Assembly (NCBI RefSeq): GCF_947241125.1
Contig: NZ_OX365700.1
Span: 434,001-498,000 of the forward strand
Direction of reading: 5' to 3'
DNA length: 64,000 bases
Origin: Nitrospira tepida
Lineage (GTDB): Bacteria > Nitrospirota > Nitrospiria > Nitrospirales > Nitrospiraceae
Part shown: positions 2,753 to 23,803 of the stretch, in pieces
How positions within the stretch are numbered: the stretch's first letter is position 1
Layout of the letters: the number at the start of each line of letters is the position of its first letter
Translations under genes and position numbers: made by a program
The notes under the pieces: generated by a model
Told to the model about the DNA's origin: nothing
The model's input: only the letters and a program-made list of their open reading frames with translations
Database searches by the model: none

Positions 2753-2850
2753 TCACCGGATCATCGAGAAACTGGACGGATCCCGTGAGCGGAAGGCCAG
2801 GGGTTTAGGTCAGGCGCACGTTCGGTCCTGACTGGTGTCGAGGGTCAGAC

Positions 2851-2879
2851 TTGACAAAACCCTACGAGGTTTGCATGAT
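2851..2879 (+). promoter_or_regulatory. Putative sigma70 promoter of the cas locus
   Basis: A perfect -35 TTGACA (2851-2856), a 17-base spacer and CATGAT (2874-2879, four of six -10 matches) lie just before the first cas gene at 2904. The spacer carries an imperfect inverted repeat, CAAAACC/GGTTTG, so the site could be bound by a repressor. It would give an mRNA leader of about 18 bases. Confidence 0.45.
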
Positions 2880-2903
2880 GCGATCCGGCTGAAGCGAGGG
2901 CGC

Positions 2904-5675: not shown

Positions 5676-8600
5676 ATGAACGACGATCTCATCTGGCAAA
5701 CCAAACTTGCCGCCCGTCTTCACGACCCGGCGGAAAAGGCGCTCGTCTTGCTCCGGGACCCGGAGGGCCACGAGGGCGGGACGAGCCGTGCGCTGCATCG
5801 AGATTTAGGCTTCCACAATCTGCCGGTGAAAGAGTGGCTCGATCCGGATAATGCCCAGGTGCTCGATACCGTGCTCTTCAAACACGGTATCCCGATCGCG
5901 ATGTACAAAACCGTCAAGCGCGCCGACTGGTGGGCGGCGGGTGCCGATCGGCCCCAGTGGCCGGTGGATACTGTGCCGACAAAATCAGGCGAGACCACAA
6001 CCTCGAGGGTCGTAAATTGGGCGCGCGTGCGCTGGACGGAAGTGCCTGTCTTGATTCATCCGCTGACAGGCACACCATTCGACCTGGGCCATCTTGCTGA
6101 CACCGACATCGGGGATATCAAGGCCCGGAGCTTCGAGCACTTCTCGCGCTTGATTGTCAAAGAGGGGGAGCACGTCGATTGGAAACGGACGCTGCTGGCC
6201 TTCTGGCGCTTTGGGCCGGAACTGCGCGAGGGGAAAGACAGCGGGCAACTCGGCCATCTGTGGCCCCTGCTACCGGCGGAGACGCGCGTGCCGGATCATT
6301 CGATCTGGGATCATCTTGATCTCACTTCAGCATTCGCTGGTGGCTTCGCAAGCGATCCTCAAGGGGAAGTGGCCCTCTTGGCGCTGTCGATCGGGCCGGT
6401 CCAGTCCTTCATTGCGGCGGCCCGCTCGACGTCCGATCTGTGGGCCGGCTCGCATCTGCTGTCGCGGCTGTCGTGGGAAGCGATGAAGGTGGTGTGTGAG
6501 CGGCTGGGGCCGGACGCAATCCTGTTTCCACGGCTACGGGGCATACCCCAAGTGGATGTGTGGTTGCGCGACGAGATGAAACTGCCCGCACAATGGTTCG
6601 CAGGCTGCAACTGGACGGAAAGGACGACGGATGCGAATCCCCTTTTTGCCGCCGCCCTTCCCAACCGTTTTGTTGCGGTGGTGCCGGCCTCGCAGTCGCG
6701 CGAGATCGCACAAGCAGTTGAAGCTCGTGTGCGCACCTGGTTGCAGGACCTCGGAAAGAACATCGTGGATCGATTGCTTGAAGCAGCCGGCTTGGCTGAC
6801 GGGACGGACAAGCACTGCCACAGGCAGATGCGGGAGCAGCTCCAGGGCTTCCCGGAAGTGCATTGGGCGGCTGTGCCCTTTTCGCTGATCCGAGCTCGCG
6901 ACGAATCGAAGCAGACCGATCTCGACGTAACGCAGTTGTCCGAGGCCATGGCGCCTTTCTTTGGCGTGGCGCCGGGGCAAGCCTGTGGCTTTCTAGAAAC
7001 TCCGGCGTGGGAGGTGTTGCAGAAGGAGGCGAAGTTTGCTGATGGAACGACCTTCTTTTCACCAAAGCCGGGCGTCCTCTACCCGGCGGTGTACGACCTA
7101 GCCGAGCGCGTCCTTGCAGCAGCGAAAAGTGTGCGGTCGTTCGAACAGGTCGAACAGAAGGGCTGGCGCGATTCGCTGACCGGCGAGAGCGAATGGCTCA
7201 CGGACGATCCGGTTCTTCTGAACGTGCCGCCGGGCAAGCGGAAGAGCCGGAGAGACGAAGGCTTTAGGGAGGGCGACCATGTCGAGACACTCTGGACGCA
7301 CCTTGCCGACGAGAAGCCGGCATGGGCCAAGAAAGGCGAGCACCTCGGGGCACTGTCGGCCATCAAGCGGTTGTGGCCCTCCCTCTTTGCCGAAGAGGTG
7401 GCTCGGGCAACTGGCCAGCCGGTCGGTCAGGTGCCGCGCTTCGTCGTCTCCACGCACACCATGGCACTGGCGTACCAGCTCGACCAGTGGCTCGATGCCG
7501 GTGCGCCGATGGGTGGTGAGCTTCGCGATCGTCTCGCAGACACCGATTCGGTCCCCCTGCCTCGCAAGCTTGCCCGGAAATACGGCCAGCGTGATGTCTT
7601 GGAATTCGCCAAACGGTTGCCGGGCTTGCTCGATGCGGTACGCGAAGGCGAAAACGAACGAGCGCTGCGTAAGGTGGAGGGCCTGATCAAAGAGGCTTTT
7701 GCCCTGGCGGATGGCGGGCAAAAGGAAGTTCGCCTCGAAACCTACTATGCCCTCCTGCTGATGGATGGTGACCACATGGGCCGCATCCTCTCAGGCGATG
7801 CGCGGTATGCCATTACCTACCAGGAGAGCTTTCACCCGGAGGTGCAACAGAGGTTCAAGGAGCAAGCCCAACACCATGACACGATCAAAGCCTACGGCGA
7901 GCAGAAGCGCGCCTTGTCTCCCAATCGGCATCTCGCCATCTCCGGGGCCCTGAACGATTTCGCCCTTCACGTGGTTCCGGAAGTCATCGAAAGTGAACAC
8001 CTCGGCCGTGTCCTCTACGCGGGTGGTGATGATGTGCTGGCCATGCTGCCCGTGGTGGATGTGTGTTCGGCTATGAGGCGCTTGCGCTGTGGATACAGTG
8101 GGCATGACCCTGAACAGGCTGCGCTCGACTGGAGAGCTGTCCGTCGTGAGACGCGCATGGTCGTCAAGGAGGGATACGCTTTCTTGCGCGGACAGCTCAT
8201 GCGGATGATGGGAGAAAAAGCCACGGCCTCCTGCGGCGCGGTGATCGCCCATCATCAGGCTCCCTTGGCCATGGTGCTGCGGGAACTGCGCGCGGCGGAG
8301 CAGCGGGCGAAAAAAGAGGGCGGGCGCGATGCCTTCTCGATCACGGTCATCAAGCGGTCGGGCGGGGTCTTGTCGCTCACTGCCAAGTGGGGCGAACCGC
8401 TGGATGTGCTGGTGGCGCTGCGCAACTTTCTGGCGGAGCCGGCGGTGTCGCGCCGCGCGGTTTATAACAGCCTCCTGTGGCTTCAGGACCTGCCGCCCGA
8501 TGCGTCGGCTGGGATGCTGGGGAGTCTGCTCGCCTATCAATTTGGGCGACAGACCTCTCGCATTGAAGTGTGGCACAAACACGAGGGGCCTCTGCTCTCC

Positions 8601-8744
8601 AACCGAATTGCGGCGCTCGCATGCAAAGAGAAGGCTCGGCTCGACTGGCTCGCGCGCTTCATGGGTGTGGCGGAGTTCTTGGCCCGGGAAGCACGGGTTA
8701 ACGTGAAGGACGCAGAGCCGGCAACAGCAAAACTTAGCCGATAA
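5676..8744 (+). CDS. cas10: Type III-B Cas10 (Cmr2), cyclic oligoadenylate synthase subunit
   Basis: Cas10 is the large subunit of the Cmr complex. Its Palm domain makes cyclic oligoadenylate on target RNA binding and its HD part can cut DNA in some systems. The 1022-residue product shows an HD dipeptide at 16-17 (LAARLHDPAEKAL), a Cmr2 Palm entry near residue 240 (SIGPVQSFIAAARSTSDLW), and an intact cyclase motif GGDD at 783-786 within RVLYAGGDDVLAML. With GGDD intact, signalling to the three CARF proteins in this locus is expected. The HD region is short, so DNase activity is uncertain. It is followed 17 bases later by cmr3. Confidence 0.95.
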   Translation: MNDDLIWQTKLAARLHDPAEKALVLLRDPEGHEGGTSRALHRDLGFHNLPVKEWLDPDNAQVLDTVLFKHGIPIAMYKTVKRADWWAAGADRPQWPVDTVPTKSGETTTSRVVNWARVRWTEVPVLIHPLTGTPFDLGHLADTDIGDIKARSFEHFSRLIVKEGEHVDWKRTLLAFWRFGPELREGKDSGQLGHLWPLLPAETRVPDHSIWDHLDLTSAFAGGFASDPQGEVALLALSIGPVQSFIAAARSTSDLWAGSHLLSRLSWEAMKVVCERLGPDAILFPRLRGIPQVDVWLRDEMKLPAQWFAGCNWTERTTDANPLFAAALPNRFVAVVPASQSREIAQAVEARVRTWLQDLGKNIVDRLLEAAGLADGTDKHCHRQMREQLQGFPEVHWAAVPFSLIRARDESKQTDLDVTQLSEAMAPFFGVAPGQACGFLETPAWEVLQKEAKFADGTTFFSPKPGVLYPAVYDLAERVLAAAKSVRSFEQVEQKGWRDSLTGESEWLTDDPVLLNVPPGKRKSRRDEGFREGDHVETLWTHLADEKPAWAKKGEHLGALSAIKRLWPSLFAEEVARATGQPVGQVPRFVVSTHTMALAYQLDQWLDAGAPMGGELRDRLADTDSVPLPRKLARKYGQRDVLEFAKRLPGLLDAVREGENERALRKVEGLIKEAFALADGGQKEVRLETYYALLLMDGDHMGRILSGDARYAITYQESFHPEVQQRFKEQAQHHDTIKAYGEQKRALSPNRHLAISGALNDFALHVVPEVIESEHLGRVLYAGGDDVLAMLPVVDVCSAMRRLRCGYSGHDPEQAALDWRAVRRETRMVVKEGYAFLRGQLMRMMGEKATASCGAVIAHHQAPLAMVLRELRAAEQRAKKEGGRDAFSITVIKRSGGVLSLTAKWGEPLDVLVALRNFLAEPAVSRRAVYNSLLWLQDLPPDASAGMLGSLLAYQFGRQTSRIEVWHKHEGPLLSNRIAALACKEKARLDWLARFMGVAEFLAREARVNVKDAEPATAKLSR

Positions 8745-8761: not shown

Positions 8762-9943
8762 ATGGGAATCACCGCGAACCGACAGGCCCTCTTCATCGAA
8801 CCGCTGGATGTCCTGGTCTTGCGGGGCAACAAGCTCTTTGGCGATCCGGGTAGCTACGGTGAGTCGCTGGTGCCGCCCTGGCCGTCGGTCGCGGCGGGCG
8901 CGATCCGGTCAGCGCTGCTTGCCCATAAGGGTGTGGACCTTCAGGAATTTGCCAAGGGGCGAGTGGCTGACCCGGAGTTGGGGACACCTCAGCAACCGGG
9001 TCCGTTCCATCTCATGGATTTCCGCCTCGCCCGCCGGTGCGCTGATGGGCGAGTCCAACCGCTGTATGCTCCTCCGGCTGATCTCGTCATCCGGCGCAAG
9101 GATGACGACAATCTCGAATGTGCATGTATGGAACCCAGGGCCTTGCCGAGCGGCATGCATTCCTCGGCGGCGACCGAGCTTCACGCCGTGCTACCGGAAC
9201 GGGAACGCACCAAGCCGAAGAGCGGCTATTGGCTGATACACGAAGGCTGGCTGACCTATCTCGCGGGCCGTGACGTTGATCCTCAAACGCATCTCGTTGA
9301 AAGCGGCGATCTGTGGAAGCTCGATGCCCGCGTGGGCGTCGGGCTCGATCCGGCGAAGCGCAGCGCGGCCGAGGGCAAGCTCTTCACCGTGCAGGCCGTC
9401 GCGATGTGGAACCGGCATCATGGCCACGCGCGCAACTACGACGTCGGCTTTCTGGCCGAGATCGAAGGGGCGGCCATTCCGCACGAGATGACATTGCGGT
9501 TCGGGGGCGACGGGCGAGCGGCCCGGGCTACACACGTTCACGCGATCGACTCCAAACCTGATCTCTTCAGCGAGATTGTGCAAGCCGGCCGTTGCCGACT
9601 CATCCTCACGAGCCCGGGGATTTTCTCCGGCGGCTGGCTGCCGACGGGCACCCAGCAACAGGAGGAGGCCGTCGTGTTCGACCTGCATGGTGTTCGGGGC
9701 CGCGTCGTCTGTGCGGCGGTGCCTCGCGCGGAAGTCGTGTCGGGGTGGGATCTGGCGAAGTGGAAGCCGAAGGCGGCTCAACGCGCCGCGCCCACCGGCA
9801 GCGTCTATTGGCTGGACGAGCTGGACACCACGCCGGAAGCGCTGCGCCAACTGGTGGACATGGGGCTGTGGAGTGAGCCGTGCGAAAATGCCGCGCGGCG
9901 CGCCGAAGGCTTCAACCGGTTTGCCTGGGGTCTGTGGCCATGA
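8762..9943 (+). CDS. cmr3: Type III-B RAMP protein Cmr3
   Basis: Cmr3 is a Cas5-like subunit that holds the crRNA 5' tag at the base of the Cmr complex beside Cas10. The opening FIEPLDVLVLRGNKLFGDPG and PPWPSVAAGAIRSALL are the family hallmarks. The product has 393 residues, a usual length. The gene ends only five bases before the stop codon of an oppositely oriented PIN toxin, so the cmr reading order is interrupted here by the TA module and resumes with cmr4. Confidence 0.92.
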   Translation: MGITANRQALFIEPLDVLVLRGNKLFGDPGSYGESLVPPWPSVAAGAIRSALLAHKGVDLQEFAKGRVADPELGTPQQPGPFHLMDFRLARRCADGRVQPLYAPPADLVIRRKDDDNLECACMEPRALPSGMHSSAATELHAVLPERERTKPKSGYWLIHEGWLTYLAGRDVDPQTHLVESGDLWKLDARVGVGLDPAKRSAAEGKLFTVQAVAMWNRHHGHARNYDVGFLAEIEGAAIPHEMTLRFGGDGRAARATHVHAIDSKPDLFSEIVQAGRCRLILTSPGIFSGGWLPTGTQQQEEAVVFDLHGVRGRVVCAAVPRAEVVSGWDLAKWKPKAAQRAAPTGSVYWLDELDTTPEALRQLVDMGLWSEPCENAARRAEGFNRFAWGLWP

Positions 9944-9948
9944 GGCGG

Positions 9949-11983
<2,035 letters not shown>

Positions 11984-11984
11984 C

Positions 11985-13358
11985 ATGCCGATCGCGGCTG
12001 TGCCCAAGTATATGCAGGACAACGATCCGGAGTTCTATCTCGCTGCACCGCCCGGACACCGCTTTCTGCTCTATTTCCCTGCTTGGGGCGAAAACAGGGA
12101 AACGCGAAAGCTCGATTGGCGAATGGACGACCGTGTACCGAAGATCGACAAAAAGACGAAGCAGCAAAAGGTTGGGAAATCCGGACCTGAATGGGAGGAC
12201 CTGACCAATGGCCAGTTTGCCTGCACGATTGCGGCATGCAAAACCCCGCCGTACGACGAGGAACGGCCACGGGCGAGGAAACCAAAGGCGGACCCTGGCC
12301 TCAAGTCATGGATGCCGGTGATGGAAGCACTGCTTGCACGTCAGATAGCGGCCGCAAGCCGGATCGCTCATGATGCGGTGCACCGCGTCAGCGCCCAAGC
12401 CATCTCCCCCTTCACCACCGGCCTCGGCAACGAGCATCCCCTGGAGAACGGCTTTGCCTTTTTGAACCCCTATGGCTTGCCGTATCTGCCCGGGAGCGGC
12501 GTGAAGGGCGTGCTGCGGCAGGCGGCGGGTGAACTGGCGAACGGCATGTGGGCCGACAAAAGGGGATGGAGCGATGAGAAGCCATATGCGATCGAGATCG
12601 GCGAACAGACGGTTTCGCTGTCGATGCTCGATGTCCTCTTTGGCCTGGAATCAAAAGACGGCGACACCGCCCACGTCCGCGGCGCCCTCTCCTTCTGGGA
12701 CATGATTCCGCAGATCGTAGCCGACAGCCTCATGGTGGAGATCATGACGCCGCACCAGAGTCACTACTACCAGATTGACAAGAAGAAGAATCCTCAACCT
12801 CCGCACTTCCAATCGCCCCACGACTCCGGCCAGCCCACGCCTCTCAGCTTCCTCACCGTGCCGCCGAAGTCGCGGTTCGTCTTCCACGTCATGTGCGACC
12901 TCGCGTGCCTGAAGCGGCTTGCTCCCGATCTCGCCGAGAACGATCGCTGGAAAACGCTGCTCCAGAGCGCCTTCGAACATGCCTTTGCCTGGCTCGGCTT
13001 CGGGGCCAAAACGGCGGTCGGCTATGGGGCGATGATCCGGGCGGACGAATCAGCTTCTCAAACAGGGGAACGACAGGTCAGTCCTGCGCCCCGCTCCCGC
13101 TGGGTGGACGACAAGCTCAGGGAGTTGTGCAGCAAGCCCGGGATTAAGGAAGACGATGCGCTCCGTGGAAAAACGTTGGCCGAAGCCGTGAAAGCCATCG
13201 ACGACGAGACAACTAGGCGGGAGGCCCTAGCCGACATCGTCCACCGCTGGAAGGAGAAAGGTTGGTGGGCGAGCAAGGTGTCAGGCTCGGCGAAACAAGC
13301 CAAGGCAATCTATGAGGAGTTGCTCGGCAAGGGACCGGCTGCGCAGGGCGTCGATTGA
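11985..13358 (+). CDS. cmr6: Type III-B RAMP protein Cmr6
   Basis: Cmr6 is a Cas7-like subunit next to Cmr1 at the head of the complex. The RAMP signature is clear: SPFTTGLGNEHPLENGF, YLPGSGVKGVLRQAAGE, RGALSFWDMIP and the glycine-rich AKTAVGYG near residue 345. At 457 residues it is longer than most Cmr6 proteins because of a Lys-rich N-terminal insertion and about 90 extra C-terminal residues. ATG follows GGAGG. It is the last cmr gene; a second TA module starts 46 bases downstream. Confidence 0.92.
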   Translation: MPIAAVPKYMQDNDPEFYLAAPPGHRFLLYFPAWGENRETRKLDWRMDDRVPKIDKKTKQQKVGKSGPEWEDLTNGQFACTIAACKTPPYDEERPRARKPKADPGLKSWMPVMEALLARQIAAASRIAHDAVHRVSAQAISPFTTGLGNEHPLENGFAFLNPYGLPYLPGSGVKGVLRQAAGELANGMWADKRGWSDEKPYAIEIGEQTVSLSMLDVLFGLESKDGDTAHVRGALSFWDMIPQIVADSLMVEIMTPHQSHYYQIDKKKNPQPPHFQSPHDSGQPTPLSFLTVPPKSRFVFHVMCDLACLKRLAPDLAENDRWKTLLQSAFEHAFAWLGFGAKTAVGYGAMIRADESASQTGERQVSPAPRSRWVDDKLRELCSKPGIKEDDALRGKTLAEAVKAIDDETTRREALADIVHRWKEKGWWASKVSGSAKQAKAIYEELLGKGPAAQGVD

Positions 13359-13404
13359 CTCGTCGCCACATCACGGTCACAATGACGCCACAACAGGGGG
13401 ACCC

Positions 13405-13674
13405 ATGGCACGAGTCGGTGTGCGGGAATTGCGAAACCACCTCAGCCGGTACTTAAAGAAGGTCAGGGGGGGAGAGGAACTGGAGGTCGCGGACCGAGGG
13501 CGAGTGATCGCCAGAGTGGTGCCGGCTGAACGCCGGGAAATCCCGGCCGAGGTCGGCGCTCTCGTGCGTGAAGGTGCGGCTACCTGGAGCGGCGGCAAGC
13601 CTAAGGGTGCGAAACGGCCGCTCGTGTTGCCCGGTCGTTCGGTGTCGGATCTGGTTATCGCGGATCGCCGATGA
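13405..13674 (+). CDS. Phd-type antitoxin
   Basis: The 89-residue protein (MARVGVRELRNHLSRYLKKV, then RGRVIARVVP) is a prevent-host-death family DNA-binding antitoxin. ATG 13405 follows CAGGGGG and is the natural start. It overlaps its toxin by four bases. It is co-oriented with the cas genes, unlike the first TA module, so it may ride on cas transcripts. Confidence 0.87.
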   Translation: MARVGVRELRNHLSRYLKKVRGGEELEVADRGRVIARVVPAERREIPAEVGALVREGAATWSGGKPKGAKRPLVLPGRSVSDLVIADRR

Positions 13675-14105
13675 TCCTCTACTGCGACACCAGCGCGCTG
13701 GTTAAGCTCTATGTGGAGGAGTCCGGCTCGTCGTGGGTTCGCCAATGGGTGGATGCCTGCCAGGTGGTGGGAATTGCCGCTATCGGGTATGTGGAAACCA
13801 AGGCCGCCTTCGCGCGAGCGGTTCACGGTGGCCGGGTGGTCCGGCGGCGGTATCGAGGAATCGTAGCGGACTTCGAACAGGATTGGAGCCGGTACCTCGT
13901 GCTGGAGATGAGCGAGCAGGTGATCCGGCAAGCCGGCCGGTTAGCCGAAGCGCATCGACTACGAGCCTATGATGAGGTTCACCTGGCTGCGGCACTGCAC
14001 ATTCGGACTCGGACTGCGGCGGAGGTCAACTTCCTGGGATTCGACGAAGAACTCAATCGGGCGGCGGGGGCAGAGGGATTGGCAGTGGTCCCGCCTCCGT
14101 CGTAA
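13671..14105 (+). CDS. PIN-domain toxin (VapC-like)
   Basis: The 144-residue PIN protein begins MILYCDTSALVKLYVEE and contains IGYVETKAAFARA and RAYDEVHLAAALHI, giving the D, E and D positions of a PIN nuclease. It pairs with the Phd antitoxin just upstream (ATGA overlap). Together with the module at 9949-10592 it places two Phd/PIN pairs on the two sides of cmr4-cmr6. Confidence 0.88.
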   Translation: MILYCDTSALVKLYVEESGSSWVRQWVDACQVVGIAAIGYVETKAAFARAVHGGRVVRRRYRGIVADFEQDWSRYLVLEMSEQVIRQAGRLAEAHRLRAYDEVHLAAALHIRTRTAAEVNFLGFDEELNRAAGAEGLAVVPPPS

Positions 14106-14188: not shown

Positions 14189-14980
14189 ATGCGCCTCCAC
14201 GTCGCCATCATCTCGGACCAGTCGCTTCCGACCGTCATTCCCTGCTTGATGGACCGGCCGGACGTGGTCGTGCTGGTCGCCTCGCGGGCGATGGAGGGCA
14301 AGGCGCGGCGGTTGCAGGCGCTGCTCCACACAGAGGGTCTCGCGGCGGAGATTCGGGACCTGGCGCCCGACGCGGGGCTTGTAGCCATTCGCGCCTCTGC
14401 GAGCGCGTTGTCGCGGGATCTGGCGACCGCCTGGCCCGACGCCGAGTTGGTGTTCAACGCCACCGGGGGCACGAAGCTCATGACGCTCGGATTTGTGGAC
14501 GTGTTTCGGAAGCGGGCCGCGCAGATCATCTACACGGATACGGCGCACGGTCGGATCGAAGTTATCGCCGATCGCCGGCAGGCGGACCCGCAGCCGGTGC
14601 CCATGCGCGACGTGCTGGATGTGCCGCGCTATCTTGCGGTGCAGGGGTTCCGGTACGCGGACGACGCCACGCGTCATGCCCTCAAACTGGAGCGGATCGA
14701 TGCCCGGCGAGAAGCGGCCCGGTTTCTGGCAGATCGGGCCCCCGGATTGAGCGGGCTCATTGCGCTGGTCAACGCCTTGGCGCATCGCGCGTTGGATGAA
14801 ACGGGCAAGGAATTGATTCAACCGGAACAGCGGCTCACGCGGGAACCCAGGGGTGAGGTGCCCAAGGCGCTCGCGCTCTTCGAGCGCGCCAGACTCATGA
14901 CACGGAAGGGCCCCGTGACCGTTCGCTTCGCGGATGTGGAGGCCGCCCGGTTTCTGGGCGGCGGGTGGTTGGAAGAGTAG
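14189..14980 (+). CDS. Card1/Can2-like effector, CARF half (ends at in-frame TAG)
   Basis: This is the N-terminal part of a DUF1887-family protein (Card1/Can2), a cyclic-tetra-adenylate-activated nuclease. The CARF signature ATGGTKLMTLG is at residues 91-101. The coding frame stops at TAG 14978-14980 right after GGGWLEE, a point where I would expect an aromatic residue and continuation into the nuclease domain. The same frame stays open afterwards to 15346 with an intact nuclease, so the two parts were one gene. It may be a recent pseudogene, a split two-chain effector, stop-codon read-through or a sequence error. Confidence 0.85.
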   Translation: MRLHVAIISDQSLPTVIPCLMDRPDVVVLVASRAMEGKARRLQALLHTEGLAAEIRDLAPDAGLVAIRASASALSRDLATAWPDAELVFNATGGTKLMTLGFVDVFRKRAAQIIYTDTAHGRIEVIADRRQADPQPVPMRDVLDVPRYLAVQGFRYADDATRHALKLERIDARREAARFLADRAPGLSGLIALVNALAHRALDETGKELIQPEQRLTREPRGEVPKALALFERARLMTRKGPVTVRFADVEAARFLGGGWLEE

Positions 14981-14989
14981 GCGTTTGCG

Positions 14990-15346
14990 GTGGCGAAGGA
15001 TGCCGGCCTCTACGACGTGCGCCTCGGCGTTACGGGCCTGTGGGAGGGCACGACGGCGGCGCGGAACGAGTTCGACGTGCTGGCCTGCGACCGGAACCGG
15101 CTGTTGTTTATCGAGTGTAAGACCCTCCGTTTCACCGGCGACGAGAACGACAACGACCTCGCGTACAAGGTTAAGAGTCTCGGAGAAGACGTCCGCGGCC
15201 TATTCGGGAACACATGGGTCTTGGCCGCACAGGAGCCGACGCCGGTGTTGAAGGATCGGGCGCAGCAGGCCGGGTTTCAGATCATCGGGCCTCGGTTCTT
15301 AGGGAGCCTGCCGCAATGGGTCCGCCTGTGGAGGGACGGCGGGTAA
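14990..15346 (+). CDS. Card1/Can2-like effector, PD-(D/E)XK nuclease half
   Basis: In the same frame as the CARF half, this part could restart at GTG 14990 (118 codons). It contains NEFDVLACDRNRLLFIECKT. Counting from the GTG, D29, E42 and K44 match the metal-binding and catalytic D, E-X-K of PD-(D/E)XK nucleases in the DUF1887 family. The only ribosome-site candidate is AGG eight bases before the GTG, overlapping the TAG, so re-initiation would be weak. No further stops or frameshifts are visible, so the domain is either still selected or very recently broken. The CRISPR leader follows directly. Confidence 0.75.
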   Translation: MAKDAGLYDVRLGVTGLWEGTTAARNEFDVLACDRNRLLFIECKTLRFTGDENDNDLAYKVKSLGEDVRGLFGNTWVLAAQEPTPVLKDRAQQAGFQIIGPRFLGSLPQWVRLWRDGG

Positions 15347-15453
15347 CAAGTCTGAAAGGGGGTGGGAAAAACTTGTGCCTCAGAACGCTTCACAAACCCT
15401 GCGCATCCGTCCGCACAACATGGCGGAACAGCAGGGAATTGTTAGTGGGGGCA
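15347..15453 (+). promoter_or_regulatory. CRISPR leader region
   Basis: This 107-base gap lies between the nuclease gene and repeat 1. Perfect repeats start here and the degenerate ones are at the far end, so new spacers should enter at this side. It has a purine-rich stretch (GAAAGGGGGTGGGAAAAA) but no convincing -35/-10 pair. Confidence 0.55.
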
Positions 15454-18400
15454 GTGGGAACCTCGACCTGAAGAAGAAGGGATTAAGACGCATAGACATT
15501 GATCGCTTTGCCACGGCGCGTCGTGGGAACCTCGACCTGAAGAAGAAGGGATTAAGACCAATCCAATCCAAACCAAAACTTTGTAGCGGCGTGGGAACCT
15601 CGACCTGAAGAAGAAGGGATTAAGACTATGAGCTGCCGCATGGGTACTTGAGCCATGGTCCGTGGGAACCTCGACCTGAAGAAGAAGGGATTAAGACCAT
15701 CAGAGAGCCACGCAATAAATTTCGCGTTCATGGGTGGGAACCTCGACCTGAAGAAGAAGGGATTAAGACACCCAGCGTCTACAGCAAGTCCTCGCTGTCA
15801 AAGCGTGGGAACCTCGACCTGAAGAAGAAGGGATTAAGACTGCACTTCAGTAGGTAGATGGGACAGCGTAGCTAGGAGTGGGAACCTCGACCTGAAGAAG
15901 AAGGGATTAAGACCAGCCTTGATAGCAGCAGCTTGCTGTTCTTGCGCAGTGGGAACCTCGACCTGAAGAAGAAGGGATTAAGACTGTGGACCTCGGACGC
16001 ATGTTCTTGCTTGTAGGTGGTGGGAACCTCGACCTGAAGAAGAAGGGATTAAGACTGATAGGGCGTCCCGCAATACGGGCACTCCCAGACCGTGGGAACC
16101 TCGACCTGAAGAAGAAGGGATTAAGACCTGTCTCCCGCTACGCAACCGGACGATATAGAGTGGGAACCTCGACCTGAAGAAGAAGGGATTAAGACCTGGG
16201 TGAGACTCATATGAGTGCGGAGTGCCTTGGTGGGAACCTCGACCTGAAGAAGAAGGGATTAAGACCACCCCATGCCATTTATCTTTATGTGAGGCTTCAG
16301 TGGGAACCTCGACCTGAAGAAGAAGGGATTAAGACGAATGAGCGCATTCACGTTCGTGCTGACCTCAATAGTGGGAACCTCGACCTGAAGAAGAAGGGAT
16401 TAAGACCATGAGTCGCTCAAGCATTTTTAGGTGTTGCCCAATGTGGGAACCTCGACCTGAAGAAGAAGGGATTAAGACCGCCCGCATACTTGATGATCCT
16501 AAAATTGACGGTAGTGGGAACCTCGACCTGAAGAAGAAGGGATTAAGACGCCATCAGCGGTCACGAGCTTATACGCGATGAGGGGATGTGGGAACCTCGA
16601 CCTGAAGAAGAAGGGATTAAGACGCAGGTCGCTCCCGCTCAGGTTGCTCCCGCGCAGGTCGGTGGGAACCTCGACCTGAAGAAGAAGGGATTAAGACCGA
16701 TATCCTCCCTCATCATTATTTCCTCGCATTCGTAGTGGGAACCTCGACCTGAAGAAGAAGGGATTAAGACATGCTGTGTGCCCGTCCATTCCTCCCTCCT
16801 TGGTTGTGGGAACCTCGACCTGAAGAAGAAGGGATTAAGACCTATATATGTGCTTCATGGTCTCCTCCTCTCCCGCGTGTGGGAACCTCGACCTGAAGAA
16901 GAAGGGATTAAGACCACTAGCTTGACATGCCTCATAATCGCTCGCTTTTCGGTGGGAACCTCGACCTGAAGAAGAAGGGATTAAGACAAAAAGGCGACCT
17001 CTCGTTTCGCCACTGCAAGAGCGTGGGAACCTCGACCTGAAGAAGAAGGGATTAAGACTCGCTATCGAAACTGACTTCTCCCTGCCCTTCGGCGTGGGAA
17101 CCTCGACCTGAAGAAGAAGGGATTAAGACATAGATCAGCGTACGGAGATGAGTCACGATCCACATAGTGGGAACCTCGACCTGAAGAAGAAGGGATTAAG
17201 ACCGTCTGCAATGATTGGTTTGGATCGGTTGTACGTGGGAACCTCGACCTGAAGAAGAAGGGATTAAGACAATTATGCTGGATGGTCCTCTCCTATTCGA
17301 TCTCCGTGGGAACCTCGACCTGAAGAAGAAGGGATTAAGACAATTATGCTGGATGGTCCTCTCCTATTCGATCTCCGTGGGAACCTCGACCTGAAGAAGA
17401 AGGGATTAAGACGATGCTGTGCAGATGTGGAATCGCATGGTCTCCTCGTGGGAACCTCGACCTGAAGAAGAAGGGATTAAGACGCTTTCAGGCTATCGAT
17501 TGCAGCCATTAGTCTGGTGGGAACCTCGACCTGAAGAAGAAGGGATTAAGACATACCCGTCCGGGTAGCAGTTCTCCCACCCGTCCCCCGTGGGAACCTC
17601 GACCTGAAGAAGAAGGGATTAAGACATCACATTGATGTAGTATACATGTCGTACAGAGCCGTCGTGGGAACCTCGACCTGAAGAAGAAGGGATTAAGACC
17701 TATGCCCTGTATCTTTATGTGAGGCTTCATGGTCCCGTGGGAACCTCGACCTGAAGAAGAAGGGATTAAGACACCACACCGTTGATTTTTTCTCAGTCGT
17801 GTCGCGTGTGGGAACCTCGACCTGAAGAAGAAGGGATTAAGACCACCCCCCTGTCTCGTACCCCCTTAACTGGTAAGCTGTGGGAACCTCGACCTGAAGA
17901 AGAAGGGATTAAGACGCCTGGACGACGAAAGCCTCAAGGTCGTCCTCCGTGGTGGGAACCTCGACCTGAAGAAGAAGGGATTAAGACATCCGTGCGCGCC
18001 GCAATCTGCACAATACGCGTTATCCGTGGGAACCTCGACCTGAAGAAGAAGGGATTAAGACTCCATCTAGCCCATATATCGCATATTGCACGAGTGGGAA
18101 CCTCGACCTGAAGAAGAAGGGATTAAGACACGGATCTCAATATCAATTAGGTAGTTTTCGAGTTCTGTGGGAACCTCGACCTGAAGAAGAAGGGATTAAG
18201 ACGTAGTCGTCGCATTCAAAGACGCTGTGGCCTGGATCGTGGGAACCTCGACCTGAAGAAGAAGGGATTAAGACCTGCTTCGCCGCCGCAATCGCCCGCG
18301 CAATCGCCTTCCGTGGGAACCTCGACCTGAAGAAGAAGGGATTAAGACAATGCTCATCCCACATTACATCCTCGACCGGCCTGTGGGAACCTCGACCTGA

Positions 18401-18929
18401 AGAAGAAGGGATTAAGACCCATTGCCGCGCACCCCAAATGAGACCTCCGGTTCGGTGGGAACCTCGACCTGAAGAAGAAGGGATTAAGACGTCGCATCGC
18501 ACCATTGGATGTGGCTATGGTCGCTCAGTGGGAACCTCGACCTGAAGAAGAAGGGATTAAGACTGCTTTTGCCCATCGCTTTTTGTCTCTGTGATACAGA
18601 GTGGGAACCTCGACCTGAAGAAGAAGGGATTAAGACCCCACGGGCGTGGCGCTTAATTATGCTGGTACTTCCTCGGTGGGAACCTCGACCTGAAGAAGAA
18701 GGGATTAAGACTGATGACTGGCTGGTCCATCTCCCTCTCCTTTCTGTTGTGGGAACCTCGACCTGAAGAAGAAGGGATTAAGACACTTGCTTGCCACTGT
18801 CTGTTCGAGGCGCGTCCAAAGTGGGAATCTCGACCTGAAGAAGAAGGGATTAAGACGCAGACAGCCGCTCCGCCTCTTGAACCGCCTGTTCAAGTGGGAA
18901 TCTCGACCTGAAGCAGAAGGGATTGCACC
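15454..18929 (+). CRISPR. CRISPR array, 49 repeats of 36 bp and 48 spacers
   Basis: The 36-bp repeat begins GTGGGAACCTCGACC and ends GGGATTAAGAC. The last eight bases (ATTAAGAC) would form the crRNA 5' tag. I counted repeat starts from 15454 to 18894 with a mean spacing of 71.7 bases; spacers are about 32-39 bases. The first 47 repeats look identical. Repeat 48 (18821) has CCT changed to TCT, and repeat 49 (18894-18929) is degenerate with an altered 3' end, marking the trailer. Spacers 26 and 27 (17271-17305 and 17342-17376) are identical. Cas6 at 22793 is the likely processing enzyme and the Cmr complex the user. Many spacers read as antisense of genes. Confidence 0.99.
17271..17412 (+). repeat. 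Duplicated spacer-repeat unit in the array
   Basis: Spacers 26 and 27 are identical 35-mers starting AATTATGCTGGATGG, each followed by a perfect repeat. The 71-bp unit was duplicated, most likely by recombination between repeats or replication slippage. Confidence 0.95.
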
Positions 18930-19224
18930 TTGCTCGGCCTTCAGACGTGCCCGCCGAGATCGCGCTAGCACCACGAAACAGTCGGAACGTATGAAGGGTC
19001 CGGCGCCCTGGCCTCTTGCGCGAGGCGCGTCATGCGAATATGGAAGACCTCCATCATCGGCTTCAGAGTCTCGCAGGACTCTGATTCCCGCGGCTCGCCC
19101 CTGAATCCATAGCCCTCTCCGTCGATTGACGCCTGGCCGTGGCGGCGTGTTTCGGCAATGTTTCCGTGCTTGCTCGCGTGGGGCCATTCCAGTAAGAAAG
19201 GAGCCGGTCAGACGGAGGTCAGTC
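18930..19224. other. Intergenic region after the array
   Basis: About 295 bases lie between the degenerate last repeat and the TIGR02710-type gene. I find no gene in either strand. It contains a copy of the 14-bp dyad element (19153-19166) and, near its end, the ribosome site of the next gene. No terminator with a T-run is visible for the array transcript. Confidence 0.5.
19153..19166. promoter_or_regulatory. Dyad element copy 3, upstream of the CARF-HEPN gene
   Basis: CGGCAATGTTTCCG is identical to the copy at 4453-4466 before cmr1 and lies almost the same distance (58 bases) before the start codon. It is a candidate shared operator. Confidence 0.45.
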
Positions 19225-20478
19225 ATGCCGAAAGCATTTGTACAGTCCGTGGGGACCGGGACGCGGCAGGACCAGGACATCACCCGGCCGCTGGTGTGGC
19301 ATTGGAGGCGAAGCGGCGCAGGATTCACCGTGTGGGTCGTGAGCGAACAGAGCCGCGCGCATGCGGAACGGATGGCGCATGCGCTTGAACTGTCACCCGC
19401 GCAGTACCGAATTGAAATGGTCAGCGACACGGACAATGTCGAGGCCGTCTATCGCGACTGTCTGGCGCTGCTCCGCGATCTGGGACAACAGGGATTCGAG
19501 CCCGACATGATCGAAGTGGACTATACCAGCGGCACAAAGGCCATGACGGCGGGTTTGGTCCTGGCAGCGGTCGCGCATCGGTGCGGGACGCTGAGCTATA
19601 TCAGCGGGGAACGGCATGGCGGCGTCGTGGCGAGCGACACCGAACGCGTGGTGTCCATCGAGCCCCGGCGCATCTGGGCGGATGAGCGGCTGAGACTGGC
19701 CGGCGAGTATTGCCGCGCCTTGCGCTTCGATGCGGCGCTCACGCTGCTCGACAGTGTCAAACCCGTCTGGTTGGGCGACTACGAGCGCCGGCTCGCCGCC
19801 GGCCTGCGGTTGATCGGGACTGGCTACGGGGCGTGGGATCGCTTCGAGTATGGGCGCGCCTCCGGCGAGTTGCGCAAGTTACGGGAGTCGGCGGTGCCGG
19901 ATCTCGACCCGTTCCGGCCGGAGCAGTCCGTGTTGACGCGATTGGTGGCGCTCACTCCCGCGAATGGATTTTCGGCCGACCGGCTGGCCGACCTGTACAA
20001 CAATGCCGGCCGGCGCCTGGACGAGGGCCGTTGTGACGACGCGCTGGCCCGGTTGTATCGACTGACGGAGATGCTGGCCCAGTGGATCTTGCACGGACAA
20101 TACGGGATCGATACCGCCGACGTGGACCTAGCCAAGGCTCCGACTCCGCTTCAGGCGCAGCTTGCAGCCCGCCGCTCGGCCGAGGGCAAGATCCTCATCG
20201 GGCTGGACCTGGATTACCAACTTCTGAAGGCGTTGGACCATCCAGTGGGCCGGCACTTCGACGAGGGCGAATGGCGGGGGATCGGGGTACTGCTCAAGAA
20301 GCGCAACGTGTCGCTCTTGGCTCACGGCCTTGAGCCCGTCTCGAAGAAGGATCTTGAGTCGTTGCGGGACAAACTTCAGGCATTGGTGGCGTTGGAAGTG
20401 CCCGATTTCGTCGACCGGCGTCGCGCGCTGGAATTTCCCTGGCGTCGCGGAAGGGAGGTCGCAAGTGGAGCAGGATGA
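19225..20478 (+). CDS. CARF-HEPN ribonuclease, TIGR02710 family (Csm6/Csx1-like)
   Basis: This 417-residue protein belongs to the TIGR02710/Cas02710 group. A CARF core with VDYTSGTKAMTAGLVLAA (residues 98-115) binds cyclic oligoadenylate. The C-terminal helical region carries RNVSLLAH (R360 to H367), an R-X6-H motif of HEPN ribonucleases. On activation it would degrade RNA nonspecifically, causing dormancy. ATG 19225 follows GGAGG. The stop overlaps an in-frame upstream ATG of cas2, so it is co-transcribed with the adaptation genes. The family call is from sequence pattern only. Confidence 0.82.
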   Translation: MPKAFVQSVGTGTRQDQDITRPLVWHWRRSGAGFTVWVVSEQSRAHAERMAHALELSPAQYRIEMVSDTDNVEAVYRDCLALLRDLGQQGFEPDMIEVDYTSGTKAMTAGLVLAAVAHRCGTLSYISGERHGGVVASDTERVVSIEPRRIWADERLRLAGEYCRALRFDAALTLLDSVKPVWLGDYERRLAAGLRLIGTGYGAWDRFEYGRASGELRKLRESAVPDLDPFRPEQSVLTRLVALTPANGFSADRLADLYNNAGRRLDEGRCDDALARLYRLTEMLAQWILHGQYGIDTADVDLAKAPTPLQAQLAARRSAEGKILIGLDLDYQLLKALDHPVGRHFDEGEWRGIGVLLKKRNVSLLAHGLEPVSKKDLESLRDKLQALVALEVPDFVDRRRALEFPWRRGREVASGAG

Positions 20479-20510
20479 ACGGAGGCTGTGGCGTTCCGAG
20501 GAGCGACTGC

Positions 20511-20789
20511 ATGCGGCGGTTATACCTCATCGCGTATGACGTGTGTGATCCGGGACGGCTGAACCGTGTCCGCGAGCTGCTGAAAGCCTATAGCACCGGG
20601 GGACAGAAATCGGTGTACGAGTGCTGGCTCACACCGGCCGAATTGACCGAGGTCACGGAGACGTTGCGGCGATTGATCGACGCGACCGTGGATCGCGCGC
20701 ACGTCGTTACATTGGACGGCCGAAGCCGACCGCACACGTTGGGCATTGCGGTGCCGCCGGCCGACCCGGCGTTCTTTTATTTCGGGTGA
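20511..20789 (+). CDS. cas2: Cas2, first copy
   Basis: Cas2 forms the dimeric core of the Cas1-Cas2 integration complex. The 92-residue product begins MRRLYLIAYDVCDPGRLNRV, the normal Cas2 first strand with its conserved Asp, followed by SVYECWLTPAEL. ATG 20511 was preferred over ATG 20475 (which overlaps the previous stop) because the Cas2 fold begins here and GAGGAG precedes it. cas1 follows eight bases later. Confidence 0.93.
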   Translation: MRRLYLIAYDVCDPGRLNRVRELLKAYSTGGQKSVYECWLTPAELTEVTETLRRLIDATVDRAHVVTLDGRSRPHTLGIAVPPADPAFFYFG

Positions 20790-20797
20790 TTCGAAGG

Positions 20798-21787
20798 ATG
20801 GGCGGAACCGTCTACATAGACCGCAGGGACGCGGAGCTGAGGGTGGATGGCGGGGCGCTCGCCGTGTACGTGAACGGCGAGCGGAACGGAACGGTGCCGC
20901 TGGCGCCGGTGGACCGGGTGGTGTTGGTGGGGAATCACAAGGTCGAAACCGCCGTGCTCCACCGCCTCTCGGAGCAGGGCATCGCCGTGCTCTTTCTGTC
21001 CGGACGGACCCAGGCCTATCGAGGCCGGCTGGTCGGCCGTCTGCACAACCACGCGCGCCTGCGCGTCCGCCAATATGCGGAAAGCCGCGGGCCGCTTGCG
21101 CTTGAGCTGGCGATGGAATGGATCGCGGCCAAGCTCGCCGGGCAGACCGCGTTGCTGCGGGAGGCGGCGGATGCGCGGCCGGAAGCACGAGCGAGTCTGC
21201 TGCGGGCTGCCGAAATCGTCGGCGACGCGCGCGACAAGGTCGCCGGCGCCGACACCCTGGCCCGCTTGCGCGGCTTGGAGGGTGGAGCGGCGTCGGCGTA
21301 CTTCGGCGCGCTTCCGGCGCTCTTTCCGCCGAGCCTCGGATTCGAGGGACGCGAACGCCGTCCCCCGCGTGATCCGGTCAATGCGTTGCTCTCGCTCACC
21401 TATACCCTGGCCCACTGGGAGTGGGTACGGGAGTGCGAGGTCATCGGCCTCGATCCGCTCATCGGTTTTTACCACGAGTTGGAGTATGGCCGGGAGTCGC
21501 TGGCCTGCGATCTCCTCGAACCGTTCCGCCCGACGGTGGATCGGTGGGTGTGGGAACTGTTCAGAACGCGGCAGTTCGAGCAACGCGATTTTACGTCGGA
21601 CGCCGGCCGGCCCGGCTGCGCCCTCAAGAAGGCGGCCAGAGGACGCTACTACGCGGCCTATGACGCGTGGATCGCTCCGCACCGGTCGCATATGCGGGAG
21701 ACGGTTGAGGCTCTGGCGCGAAGAGTCGTGGACCATGGAGAGAACGCTGTATCTGAACGAAGTGCCGGGGTTGCGTGTCAACCGTGA
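20798..21787 (+). CDS. cas1: Cas1 integrase, complete active-site copy
   Basis: Cas1 is the metal-dependent integrase that inserts spacers at the leader-repeat junction. The 329-residue product has the beta-rich N-terminus (TVYIDRRDAELRVDGGAL) and the helical catalytic lobe. The expected metal ligands are present: E161 in LRGLEGGAASAYF, H226 in GFYHELEYG, and D238/E241 in ACDLLEPFRP. GTG 20786 is an alternative in-frame start. Its last 53 bases overlap the second cas1-like gene in another frame, implying translational coupling. There is no fused reverse transcriptase. Confidence 0.96.
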   Translation: MGGTVYIDRRDAELRVDGGALAVYVNGERNGTVPLAPVDRVVLVGNHKVETAVLHRLSEQGIAVLFLSGRTQAYRGRLVGRLHNHARLRVRQYAESRGPLALELAMEWIAAKLAGQTALLREAADARPEARASLLRAAEIVGDARDKVAGADTLARLRGLEGGAASAYFGALPALFPPSLGFEGRERRPPRDPVNALLSLTYTLAHWEWVRECEVIGLDPLIGFYHELEYGRESLACDLLEPFRPTVDRWVWELFRTRQFEQRDFTSDAGRPGCALKKAARGRYYAAYDAWIAPHRSHMRETVEALARRVVDHGENAVSERSAGVACQP

Positions 21788-22514
21788 CGGCCCGTCGCTG
21801 TGGATCGAGCGGCGCGGCTCGGCTGGACGGCGGGTTCCGGTCCGGCTGGTTCGCCGGGTCCTGATCGCGGGCAACGTGGCGCTCGATACGGGAAGTCTGA
21901 CGGCCTTTGCGGAGCGCGGCGTGCCCGTCGCCTTCCTGAATCGGGCCGGCGAACCGGTGGCGATGGTGATCGGATGCGCGGCGGGGCTGTTCGCGCGCCG
22001 CGCCGAGCAAGCGGCGGCCTTGGAGGACCCCGGAACGCGGGAGCGATTGTCGGCGTGGCTCCGGGCATGGGAACGAGGGCGCCGGCTCACCCTCGCCTCC
22101 CGGCTCGATCCCGTGACCGCGGCACGGTGGCGGCGGGAGGGCCTGCGTCCGCTGGACTACGACACCTGGATCGCGCGGCAGGCCCGCCTGCGCGGCGCGT
22201 CCCCGCGGCGGCGCGGCTTCTTTCACGCCGCGCTCCACACGCTGGCCCTCGAGCGGATTTCGGAGGCCGGATGGGATCCTCATCTGGGCGTGCAGCACAG
22301 GGCGCAAGGCTTGGGCTTGGTTCGAGACTGTGTAGTCGCCCTCCAGGCCGACGCCGACCAGGCGTGGCTGGAGAGCGGAGGGGTCGAGGTCGGTCTTTCA
22401 GATGGAACCGTGTCCCCGGCCTTAGCCGCCTATTTTGAAACCCGCCGCCCTCGCTTGGCGGCGTTCATGCGCCGGCTGCTCGATCAATACGAAGCCATTA
22501 TTCGCGGACGTTGA
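21735..22514 (+). CDS. Divergent second Cas1, predicted catalytically inactive
   Basis: The 259-residue product has a recognisable Cas1 N-terminal sheet (TLYLNEVPGLRVNRDGPSLW, then VRRVLIAGNVALDTGSL and FAERGVPVAFLN) and part of the helical lobe (GWDPHLGVQHRAQGLGLVRD). Compared with the neighbouring Cas1 it is about 70 residues shorter and lacks the LEG-AAR-YF segment with the first catalytic Glu. H188 and D198 can be aligned with the metal His and Asp, but the final acidic ligand position is Val. This suggests a structural, not catalytic, Cas1 paralogue. It overlaps cas1 by 53 bases and is followed three bases later by its own cas2. Confidence 0.8.
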   Translation: MERTLYLNEVPGLRVNRDGPSLWIERRGSAGRRVPVRLVRRVLIAGNVALDTGSLTAFAERGVPVAFLNRAGEPVAMVIGCAAGLFARRAEQAAALEDPGTRERLSAWLRAWERGRRLTLASRLDPVTAARWRREGLRPLDYDTWIARQARLRGASPRRRGFFHAALHTLALERISEAGWDPHLGVQHRAQGLGLVRDCVVALQADADQAWLESGGVEVGLSDGTVSPALAAYFETRRPRLAAFMRRLLDQYEAIIRGR

Positions 22515-22517
22515 CGT

Positions 22518-22796
22518 ATGCGGAGCCGTTACCTTGTGTGCTATGACATTGCCGACGAGGGCCGGTTGACCCGCCTGCACCGGTATCTCAAGAGCATCGG
22601 GGTGCCGGTGCAATATTCCGTGTTCCTCTGCTCGCTGACCTGGCCGGAGTTGCAGGAGGGCTTATCCCGCATCCGCGATCTGATCGACGCGACGGCCGAC
22701 GATGTTCGAGTCTACCCCCTCCCGGCCGATGAGCCGATCACGTCGCTGGGGTCCGGAGACCGCACCCCGGAGGGCACAGTGGTGGTGCTGCCGTGA
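22518..22796 (+). CDS. cas2: Cas2, second copy
   Basis: This 92-residue protein begins MRSRYLVCYDIADEGRLTRL and has SVFLCSLTWPEL, a normal Cas2 fold with the conserved Asp. It clearly differs from the first Cas2 and has a different C-terminus. It directly follows the divergent Cas1, so the order cas2-cas1-cas1-like-cas2 suggests two distinct Cas1-Cas2 pairs or a mixed complex. Its stop overlaps the GTG start of cas6. Confidence 0.9.
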   Translation: MRSRYLVCYDIADEGRLTRLHRYLKSIGVPVQYSVFLCSLTWPELQEGLSRIRDLIDATADDVRVYPLPADEPITSLGSGDRTPEGTVVVLP

Positions 22797-23803
22797 GCGA
22801 GCCGCTTCGGGATAGTGAAGGAGCCCGCGCGTCCTTGCCGGTCACCTTCGGCCGGTTCACGATCGCGCTTGCAGCCGACGCGGCGCTGTGGCTCCCTTCT
22901 TACGCCGGTTCCATGTTCCGCGGCGCCTTCGGTCATGCGCTCCAACGGGTCGTCTGCGCGACGCGGACGTACGACTGCGCCCCCTGTCTGCTCAGGGACC
23001 GCTGTGTGTATCCGTACGTGTTCGAGACGCCCCCGCCTGAAGGCACGCGGGTGATGCGCAAGTATCCGGCGGCGCCGCACCCGTTTGTGCTCCAACCGCC
23101 GGCGGGCGGACGCACGCTGGCTCCCGGCGAGGCATTTGAGCTGGGCCTCACGTTGTTCGGCCGGGCGCTGCGGTGGCTCCCGCACTTCATTTTTACCGTT
23201 GAACGGATGGGCCGCGTCGGATTCGGCTCCCGGCGCGTTTCGGCATCGGTCCTCCACGCGGATGGTTGGCTGGACGGGCGCGCTTGCCGGATCTATTCCG
23301 CCGAGGACCGAACGCTCGCCGCGACCGAGGCCTGTACGCAGGCAGCCTACCTGCCACCGCGCCCGCAGATCGGCGGCGCCGATCATCCGCCTGACGGACG
23401 AATCGCGGTCGAAATCGTCACCCCGCTCCGGGTGAAGTACGAGGAGCGACTTGCGACATCGCTCGAGTTTCATATCCTGGTCCGCGCTCTGCTTAGACGG
23501 ATCGCCCATCTGGCCTATTTTCATTGCGACGGCGATCCATCGGGCATGGCGTTTCGTGAATGGATCGACCTCGCGCATGCCGTGCGGGTCGCTTCATCTA
23601 CCCTGACGTGGTACGACTGGACCCGCTACTCGCAACGACAGCAGGAGACCATGCAGCTTGGTGGACTGGTCGGTCGCGTCGTCTTTGAGGGCCCCGTCGG
23701 GCCATTTCTGCCGCTGCTACGCCTGGGCGAGGTGACCCACGTTGGAAAGGCGACAGGTTTCGGATTAGGACGGTATCGGGTGCTTGATCCCCACGCTGAA
23801 TGA
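22793..23803 (+). CDS. cas6: Cas6 pre-crRNA processing endoribonuclease
   Basis: Cas6 cuts within repeats to release crRNAs. The 336-residue product is a tandem-ferredoxin RAMP protein of the type seen with III-B systems: YAGSMFRGAFGHAL at the N-terminus and a closing glycine-rich loop GKATGFGLGRYRV. A cysteine set C55-X6-C62-X2-C65-X5-C71 could bind zinc, as in many relatives. It starts at GTG 22793, overlapping the second cas2 stop by four bases, so it is translationally coupled to the adaptation genes. Confidence 0.9.
   Translation: MSEPLRDSEGARASLPVTFGRFTIALAADAALWLPSYAGSMFRGAFGHALQRVVCATRTYDCAPCLLRDRCVYPYVFETPPPEGTRVMRKYPAAPHPFVLQPPAGGRTLAPGEAFELGLTLFGRALRWLPHFIFTVERMGRVGFGSRRVSASVLHADGWLDGRACRIYSAEDRTLAATEACTQAAYLPPRPQIGGADHPPDGRIAVEIVTPLRVKYEERLATSLEFHILVRALLRRIAHLAYFHCDGDPSGMAFREWIDLAHAVRVASSTLTWYDWTRYSQRQQETMQLGGLVGRVVFEGPVGPFLPLLRLGEVTHVGKATGFGLGRYRVLDPHAE

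Follow-up and report, generated by a model that had tools for sequence, protein, structure and literature searches.

Which strand do the guides of the CRISPR array in this locus read, and do they fall on translation start sites more often than chance allows? The earlier note on this window, the whole stretch of 64,000 nucleotides of the Nitrospira tepida genome (4.73 Mb, one contig) analysed here, had claimed that the spacers run antisense to genes and are rich in start sites. We asked which genes surround the array, which strand its spacers take, and how their start-site content compares with other arrays and with random windows of phage and prophage genes.

The array and its type III-B genes

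Profile searches and repeat analysis of the window gave the following features, all on the + strand:

2835-4025, +: CARF ring nuclease / Csm6, NE0113 family (TIGR02584, 203.5 bits, cut-off 80.65)
4524-5672, +: RAMP protein in the Cmr1 position (PF03787 RAMPs; no NCBIfam Cmr1 match)
5676-8744, +: Cas10/Cmr2 (TIGR02577, 219.7 bits, cut-off 79.4)
8762-9943, +: Cmr3 (TIGR01888, 88.9 bits, below cut-off 100.4)
10640-11596, +: Cmr4 (TIGR02580, 207 bits, cut-off 87)
11597-11983, +: Cmr5 (TIGR01881, 36.2 bits, cut-off 27.9)
11985-13358, +: Cmr6 (TIGR01898, 102.6 bits, cut-off 51.1)
14189-15346, +: Card1-like gene with a CARF part and a nuclease part (PF23400, PF09002)
15347-15453, +: leader side of the array; stretches adjoining the first repeat align with the loci L030 and L029
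15454-18929, + (crRNA strand): CRISPR array, repeat GTGGGAACCTCGACCTGAAGAAGAAGGGATTAAGAC, 49 repeats and 48 spacers
19222-20478, +: Csm6-like CARF-HEPN protein (TIGR02710, PF09670)
20475-20789, +: Cas2 (PF09827 over 20511-20786)
20798-21787, +: Cas1, no reverse transcriptase domain found (PF01867, 261.9 bits, the sole Pfam family matched)
21768-22514, +: second, partial Cas1-like protein (PF01867, 45.7 bits, residues 3-91 only)
22793-23803, +: Cas6 (PF10040)

From these profile matches we assign the locus to the type III-B (Cmr) CRISPR-Cas systems. Cas10/Cmr2 stands together with Cmr3 to Cmr6, where Cmr2, Cmr4, Cmr5 and Cmr6 score above their NCBIfam cut-offs and Cmr3 below, and a leader, Cas6, Cas1 and Cas2 all accompany the array. 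The CARF effector proteins of the locus are those matching TIGR02584 and TIGR02710 and the Card1 CARF and nuclease parts. An in-frame TAG (14978-14980) interrupts the Card1-like gene between these two parts. Since the copies in L030 (genome G008) and L029 (genome G102), the corresponding loci of two relatives, are single open frames, the Card1-like effector of the window is probably broken or produced in two pieces.

Two PIN-toxin/Phd-type antitoxin pairs lie inside the Cmr cluster, one between cmr3 and cmr4 on the opposite strand (9949-10640) and the other between cmr6 and the Card1-like gene (13399-14105). Directly behind Cas1 follows the second Cas1-like protein, which is also found in L030 (16124-16900). 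It aligns with the N-terminal part of Cas1, keeps the DPxxG..H stretch and has a gap at the position of the EG...YF stretch, and a PDB search with it returned one weak match only; it may be a degenerate partner subunit.

An RNA-acquiring type III system with an RT-Cas1 fusion was considered and rejected: no reverse transcriptase accompanies cas1, and Cas1 matches no other Pfam family. The sole PF00078 reverse transcriptase match in the genome (C1:1807083-1807721) is about 1.35 Mb from the locus and apart from all three cas loci observed in the genome, and a search of the region around it (L123) for CRISPR arrays found none.

The array repeats are 36 nt long; 47 of the 49 are perfect, one has 1 mismatch and the last has 6, and these degenerate copies form the right end of the array. 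The repeat has no further occurrence with up to 3 mismatches in the genome outside the array. Spacers measure 32-39 nt and 47 of the 48 are distinct, spacers 26 and 27 being an exact duplicated repeat-spacer unit (17235-17376). On the left, a TTGCGCA region and a GGGGGGC-like run before the repeat make up the stretches that align with L030 and L029, whereas the far side of the array aligns with neither. A consensus search for a sigma-70-like promoter on the leader side (15347-15453) found none. The conservation of the left leader, together with the decay of the right-end repeats, indicates that guides correspond to the + strand, so that their targets are the reverse complements of the spacers.

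Strand of the spacers relative to genes

We scored each spacer on both strands with a codon-frequency model trained on host, phage or joint sets, whose accuracy per 36-nt window is 59-70% (66.5% on held-out host windows, 70.2% for the host model on phages and 59.3% for the phage model on the host). The reverse complement was called coding in 37, 32 and 34 of the 47 distinct spacers with host, phage and joint training, respectively. At an accuracy of about two-thirds, this is the result that nearly complete antisense orientation would be expected to give. In the same order of training sets, the reverse complement was called coding in 49, 41 and 48 of 67 spacers of the related G102 array, in 12, 13 and 14 of 21 of the small G008 array (not significant), and in 362, 377 and 380 of 571 spacers from further arrays that share the repeat type.

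Two further arrays of the same genome served as controls, their orientation being taken from repeat form and gene order only, and neither displays a strand bias: array B, with type I-B neighbours, had 25, 28 and 29 of 55 reverse complements called coding, and array C, with type I-G neighbours, 45, 50 and 48 of 89. Array B (L120:6328-10454; 57 repeats, 55 distinct spacers) adjoins Cas3, Cas5b, Cas7 and Cas1, with a second Cmr4 at a distance of about 20 kb. Array C (L131:504-7057; 90 repeats, 89 distinct spacers) adjoins the type I-G genes Cas3g, Cas8g2, Csb1, Csb2 and Cas4g/Cas1g.

Overlapping but non-identical spacers, which indicate that a pair derives from related viral sites, point the same way. 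Arrays of this repeat type hold 29 such pairs, of which 28 lie on the same strand and one on opposite strands. All 19 pairs in G102 agree in strand, although they group into nine clusters whose member pairs are not independent of each other. Each of the nine clusters in L029 keeps one orientation throughout, as would follow from repeated sampling of the same viral loci. Leader conservation, the codon model, the same-genome control arrays and the orientation of overlapping spacers thus all uphold the earlier claim that the spacers are antisense to genes. This is the coding-strand bias already described for type III systems, and type III interference predicts it. The genome provides a clean internal control, in which the one RNA-targeting array is biased and both the I-G array and the I-B-adjacent array are unbiased.

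The comparison with viruses that the earlier note had proposed was carried out and returned no matching virus in the collections searched. In blastn searches of the array, phages yielded 6 records, all at the pentapeptide-repeat spacer 17 (E 4), and plasmids yielded 9 (four match weakly at spacer 17, four have matches shorter than 32 nt, and the remaining hit is to the repeats of a different array, in Methylocaldum); none is a true protospacer. The arrays L086 and L097 had no matches in phages. Pattern scans of IMG/VR gave zero for TGAAGCCTCACATAAAGATA, for the FIAWLSDG reading and for one G102 gene; two contigs carry an analogous VYRLGWDD gene with no convincing protospacer, and none of 39 contigs with MKPHIKI continues like spacer 12 or 32. 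Against 175 family genomes the array found related repeats and short weak matches and no protospacer, and all spacers against prophage stretches and viral contigs gave two matches (17 and 19 nt), neither from the window array. Strand and start-site calls are therefore made from composition, the codon model and motifs, and each start site was recognised by its motif and reading frame.

Translation start sites among the spacers

Two rules were used to count a Shine-Dalgarno (SD) word followed by a start codon: a strict one, R1 (AGGAG or GGAGG, 3-9 nt, ATG), and a looser one, R2 (AGGA, GGAG or GAGG, 4-9 nt, ATG). R1 matched the reverse complement of 4/47 spacers and the sense strand of 0/47; R2 matched 7/47 and 1/47, respectively. 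The earlier statement that no SD-ATG occurs in the sense orientation stands under R1 and gives way under R2, where spacer 32 provides one. The ten spacers that had been named as start sites are as follows, together with the duplicated pair:

Spacer 3, 15627-15661, -: reverse complement GGACCATGGCTCAAG; possible start with the SD cut off, missed by R1 and R2
Spacer 4, 15698-15733, -: reverse complement from ATG reads MNAKFIAWLSD
Spacer 12, 16266-16299, -: reverse complement reads (M)KPHIKINGMG
Spacer 18, 16698-16734, -: reverse complement GAGGAAATAATGATG, SD and ATG
Spacer 19, 16771-16805, -: reverse complement AAGGAGGGAGGAATGGACGGG, SD and ATG
Spacer 20, 16842-16878, -: reverse complement GAGGAGGAGACCATGAAGCAC, SD and ATG
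Spacer 21, 16915-16951, -: reverse complement from ATG reads MRHVKLV; possible start, missed by R1 and R2
Spacer 28, 17413-17447, -: reverse complement GAGGAGACCATGCGATTCCAC, SD and ATG
Spacer 32, 17700-17736, -: reverse complement GGGACCATGAAGCCTCACATAAAG, reads MKPHIKIQGI
Spacer 46, 18712-18748, -: reverse complement AAAGGAGAGGGAGATGGACCAG, SD and ATG
Spacers 26 and 27, 17271-17376, -: identical; reverse complement AGGAGAGGACCATC, SD-like without ATG

All ten (nos. 18, 19, 20, 28 and 46; 3, 4, 12, 21 and 32) match spacer coordinates exactly, and inspection by eye found SD and ATG in the reverse complements as claimed, for example GAGGAGACCATG, AGGAGGGAGGAATG and GGAGAGGGAGATG. Also present are the protein-motif readings WECPYCGTPY (no. 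9), YCADCGAHG (no. 36) and the pentapeptide repeat DLRGSNLSGSDL (no. 17). R2 catches all five spacers that had been named for SD and ATG, and it adds nos. 15 and 41, whose matches look accidental.

Upon comparison with dinucleotide shuffles of the same spacers, only 3/1000 (R1) and 2/1000 (R2) reached the observed counts. ATG by itself occurs in 26/47 reverse complements versus 24/47 in sense, and 866/1000 shuffles had at least as many, so an ATG excess as such was rejected; the SD word alone (8/47) was not significant (144/1000 shuffles). A lax rule that admits GTG and TTG starts gave 10/47, which is marginal (47/1000 shuffles).

Windows of spacer length were also drawn at random from the coding strand in six phages whose genes lie almost entirely on a single strand. 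Their mean rates were 1.6% (R1) and 3.4% (R2), with the maximum in T7 (2.7% and 5.4%). Six hand-chosen small-gene phage regions gave a mean R2 of 4.7% and a maximum of 7.2% (gh-1), and this richest region would predict 3.4/47 R2 matches against the 7 observed. A prophage null from nine of eleven stretches of family relatives (the short L182 and L191 omitted; genes called by a simple script) gave 1.6% (R1) and 3.9% (R2) over 147,332 windows. With R2, the window array, which is the discovery set for the start excess, has 7 matches where 1.6-2.5 of 47 are expected across four nulls taken from surrogate phages and prophages rather than from the spacers' own target viruses (P 0.001-0.013). For the phage mean, the T7 maximum, the small-gene mean and the prophages, the individual values are P 0.0011, 0.013, 0.0064 and 0.0022 under R2 and 0.0068, 0.039, 0.013 and 0.0071 under R1.

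The G102 and G008 arrays together gave 9/88 under R2 (P 0.0074) and 4/88 under R1 (P 0.055); when three G102 spacers of the same site are counted once, R2 falls to 7/86 (P 0.051). Arrays B and C of the same genome had 5/144 R2 matches versus 7/47 (Fisher one-sided P 0.0105) and 3/144 R1 matches versus 4/47 (P 0.063). The 571 spacers from the remaining arrays of this repeat type, a type assigned from the repeat alone for 42 other loci and L031, show no excess (R2 18/571, or 3.2%; R1 6), and a general start preference across arrays of this repeat type was rejected. Four arrays within this set labelled Nitrospirae or Nitrospirales (L048, L053, L064 and L070) gave R2 2/34. These counts come from 43 of 70 loci plus L029-L031, with L097 repeating L029; spacers of 24-55 nt were kept, and arrays with fewer than 3 repeats, duplicates and the window's own array were removed. 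Orientation is shared more widely: in 659 further distinct spacers, SD-ATG matches in the reverse complement versus sense numbered 10:0 (R1) and 27:4 (R2).

Some individual cases carry weight of their own. Spacers 12 and 32 share 20/20 nt on the same strand, both reading MKPHIKI before continuing as NGMG (12) or QGI (32); by this shared reading they target the start of the same predicted viral gene. Spacer 4 overlaps two spacers of array B, both in the same orientation: B20 (FIAWLSDGSDC) at 92% across 24 nt, and B12 (MNETPKFIV) over 12 nt (readings by eye). Two start-site cases thus have independent support, spacer 4 from B20 and B12, and spacers 12 and 32 from each other. Three G102 spacers carry GGAGTGAGCCATGA, one site hit repeatedly. 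Spacer 45 has AATTATGCTGG in common with spacers 26 and 27, which suggests that related sites may have been re-encountered.

Taken together, the earlier claim that start sites in this array are denser than chance is moderately supported: the R2 count against the nulls and the two relatives speak for it, and the 571 other spacers against it. The strand bias is thus general, whereas the start excess is a feature of the Nitrospira-family arrays. This contrast suggests that the excess stems from the viruses or the adaptation module of these arrays and not from the III-B mechanism as such.

Explanations and known systems

The account we consider probable is that of a III-B array with antisense guides, in which the start excess is a by-product of compact, repeatedly hit viral genes, possibly helped by 5'-proximal acquisition. 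Nearly all of the 47 distinct guides would be complementary to viral mRNA. Cas1-Cas2 would take spacers from both DNA strands, and only those matching transcripts would protect and persist, as reported for an RT-less type III system in Thermus. The start excess would then reflect where protective spacers lie, namely in compact early genes, where a start recurs at intervals of a few hundred bases, and viral loci hit over and over, such as those behind spacers 12 and 32, spacer 4 with B20 and B12, and the three G102 spacers with GGAGTGAGCCATGA, would add to it. The acquisition preference reported for S. thermophilus type III may contribute.

It seems rather unlikely, by comparison, that the Cas1-Cas2 of this lineage itself favours gene 5' ends, drawing for instance on single-stranded DNA of the coding strand or its hairpins behind the promoter, so that start regions are oversampled before selection. 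For S. thermophilus, in the absence of an RT, type III spacers are described as concentrated 10-50 bp downstream of starts (PMC9048733), the window locus encodes a Cas1-Cas2 pair of its own together with the odd second Cas1-like protein, and the start excess is common to two relatives with related repeats, of which L030 also encodes the second Cas1-like protein. However, other arrays of the same repeat type lack the excess (18/571), the S. thermophilus enrichment falls downstream of the start but SD and ATG are here inside the spacer, and unselected Thermus spacers are described as coming from both strands (PMC7515739). Selection for ribosome-binding-site guides, either because that segment is accessible or because pairing also blocks translation, is possible but in our estimate very unlikely. 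The reverse-complement counts (4/47 and 7/47 versus 1/47 in sense), their excess over coding-strand nulls (R2 P 0.0011 for the six-phage mean and 0.0022 for prophages) and the recurrence in two relatives (9/88, P 0.0074) fit it; yet the effect is not general to the repeat type (18/571), weakens once the repeated G102 site is collapsed (7/86, P 0.051) and is partly approached by small-gene phage regions (R2 up to 7.2%, gh-1).

A chance fluctuation spotted post hoc, with the strand bias alone being real, would account for the small numbers (4-7 of 47), the lack of an ATG excess, the SD word that alone does not differ significantly from shuffles, the two accidental-looking matches among the seven under R2, and the modest P of 0.013 (R2) and 0.039 (R1) at T7-like rates. 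Two independent relatives' arrays that agree under R2 (9/88, P 0.0074) and the difference from the same-genome arrays (R2 5/144 vs 7/47, P 0.0105; R1 3/144 vs 4/47, P 0.063) argue against it, and we regard it as somewhat improbable. In our reading, selected guides combined with compact genes come out most likely, 5'-biased acquisition next, and ribosome-site selection as a possibility. A bolder proposal, that Nitrospira-family III-B systems actively favour initiation-region guides through 5'-directed acquisition or better protection, the complex both blocking translation and signalling, strikes us as distinctly unlikely. Should the start excess hold on mapped targets, it would follow that adaptation in the wild favours 5' ends or that ribosome-site guides protect better, and the result would help in choosing guides for RNA-targeting CRISPR tools.

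A preference of type III spacers for the coding strand is described by Vink et al. 2021 (PMC8482600). The window array shares with those systems its spacers complementary to mRNA; unlike there, the bias emerges here from a codon model and same-genome control arrays rather than from mapped protospacers. For the RT-less type III system of Thermus thermophilus, strand bias is ascribed to selection on acquisitions from both strands, and protective spacers are described as crowding in the early region or early genes (PMC7515739); the words 'start codon' and 'translation' are absent from the main text of that paper. Like the Thermus system, ours combines a type III locus lacking RT-Cas1 with a strong strand bias, but the Thermus targets are known phages, whereas the target viruses of the window array are known only through its spacers. 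Searches of open-access papers that link type III spacers to start codons, Shine-Dalgarno sequences or ribosome-binding sites turned up none describing an excess over the initiation site itself. The closest case is the type III-A system of S. thermophilus, for which a review (PMC9048733, citing Zhang et al. 2021) describes spacers enriched on the coding strand 10-50 bp downstream of starts. Coding-strand enrichment near starts and the lack of an RT are common to both, but that enrichment concerns host genes and fresh acquisitions, and ours concerns SD and ATG within old spacers.

Among the relatives, the G008 locus (L030) differs in having only 22 repeats and a Card1-like gene in one open frame, and no spacer overlaps between its array and that of the window. 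With gene names given by likeness to the window genes, it nevertheless keeps the same order throughout: Cmr genes, Card1-like gene, array with a related repeat, CARF-HEPN protein, Cas1, second Cas1-like protein and Cas6.
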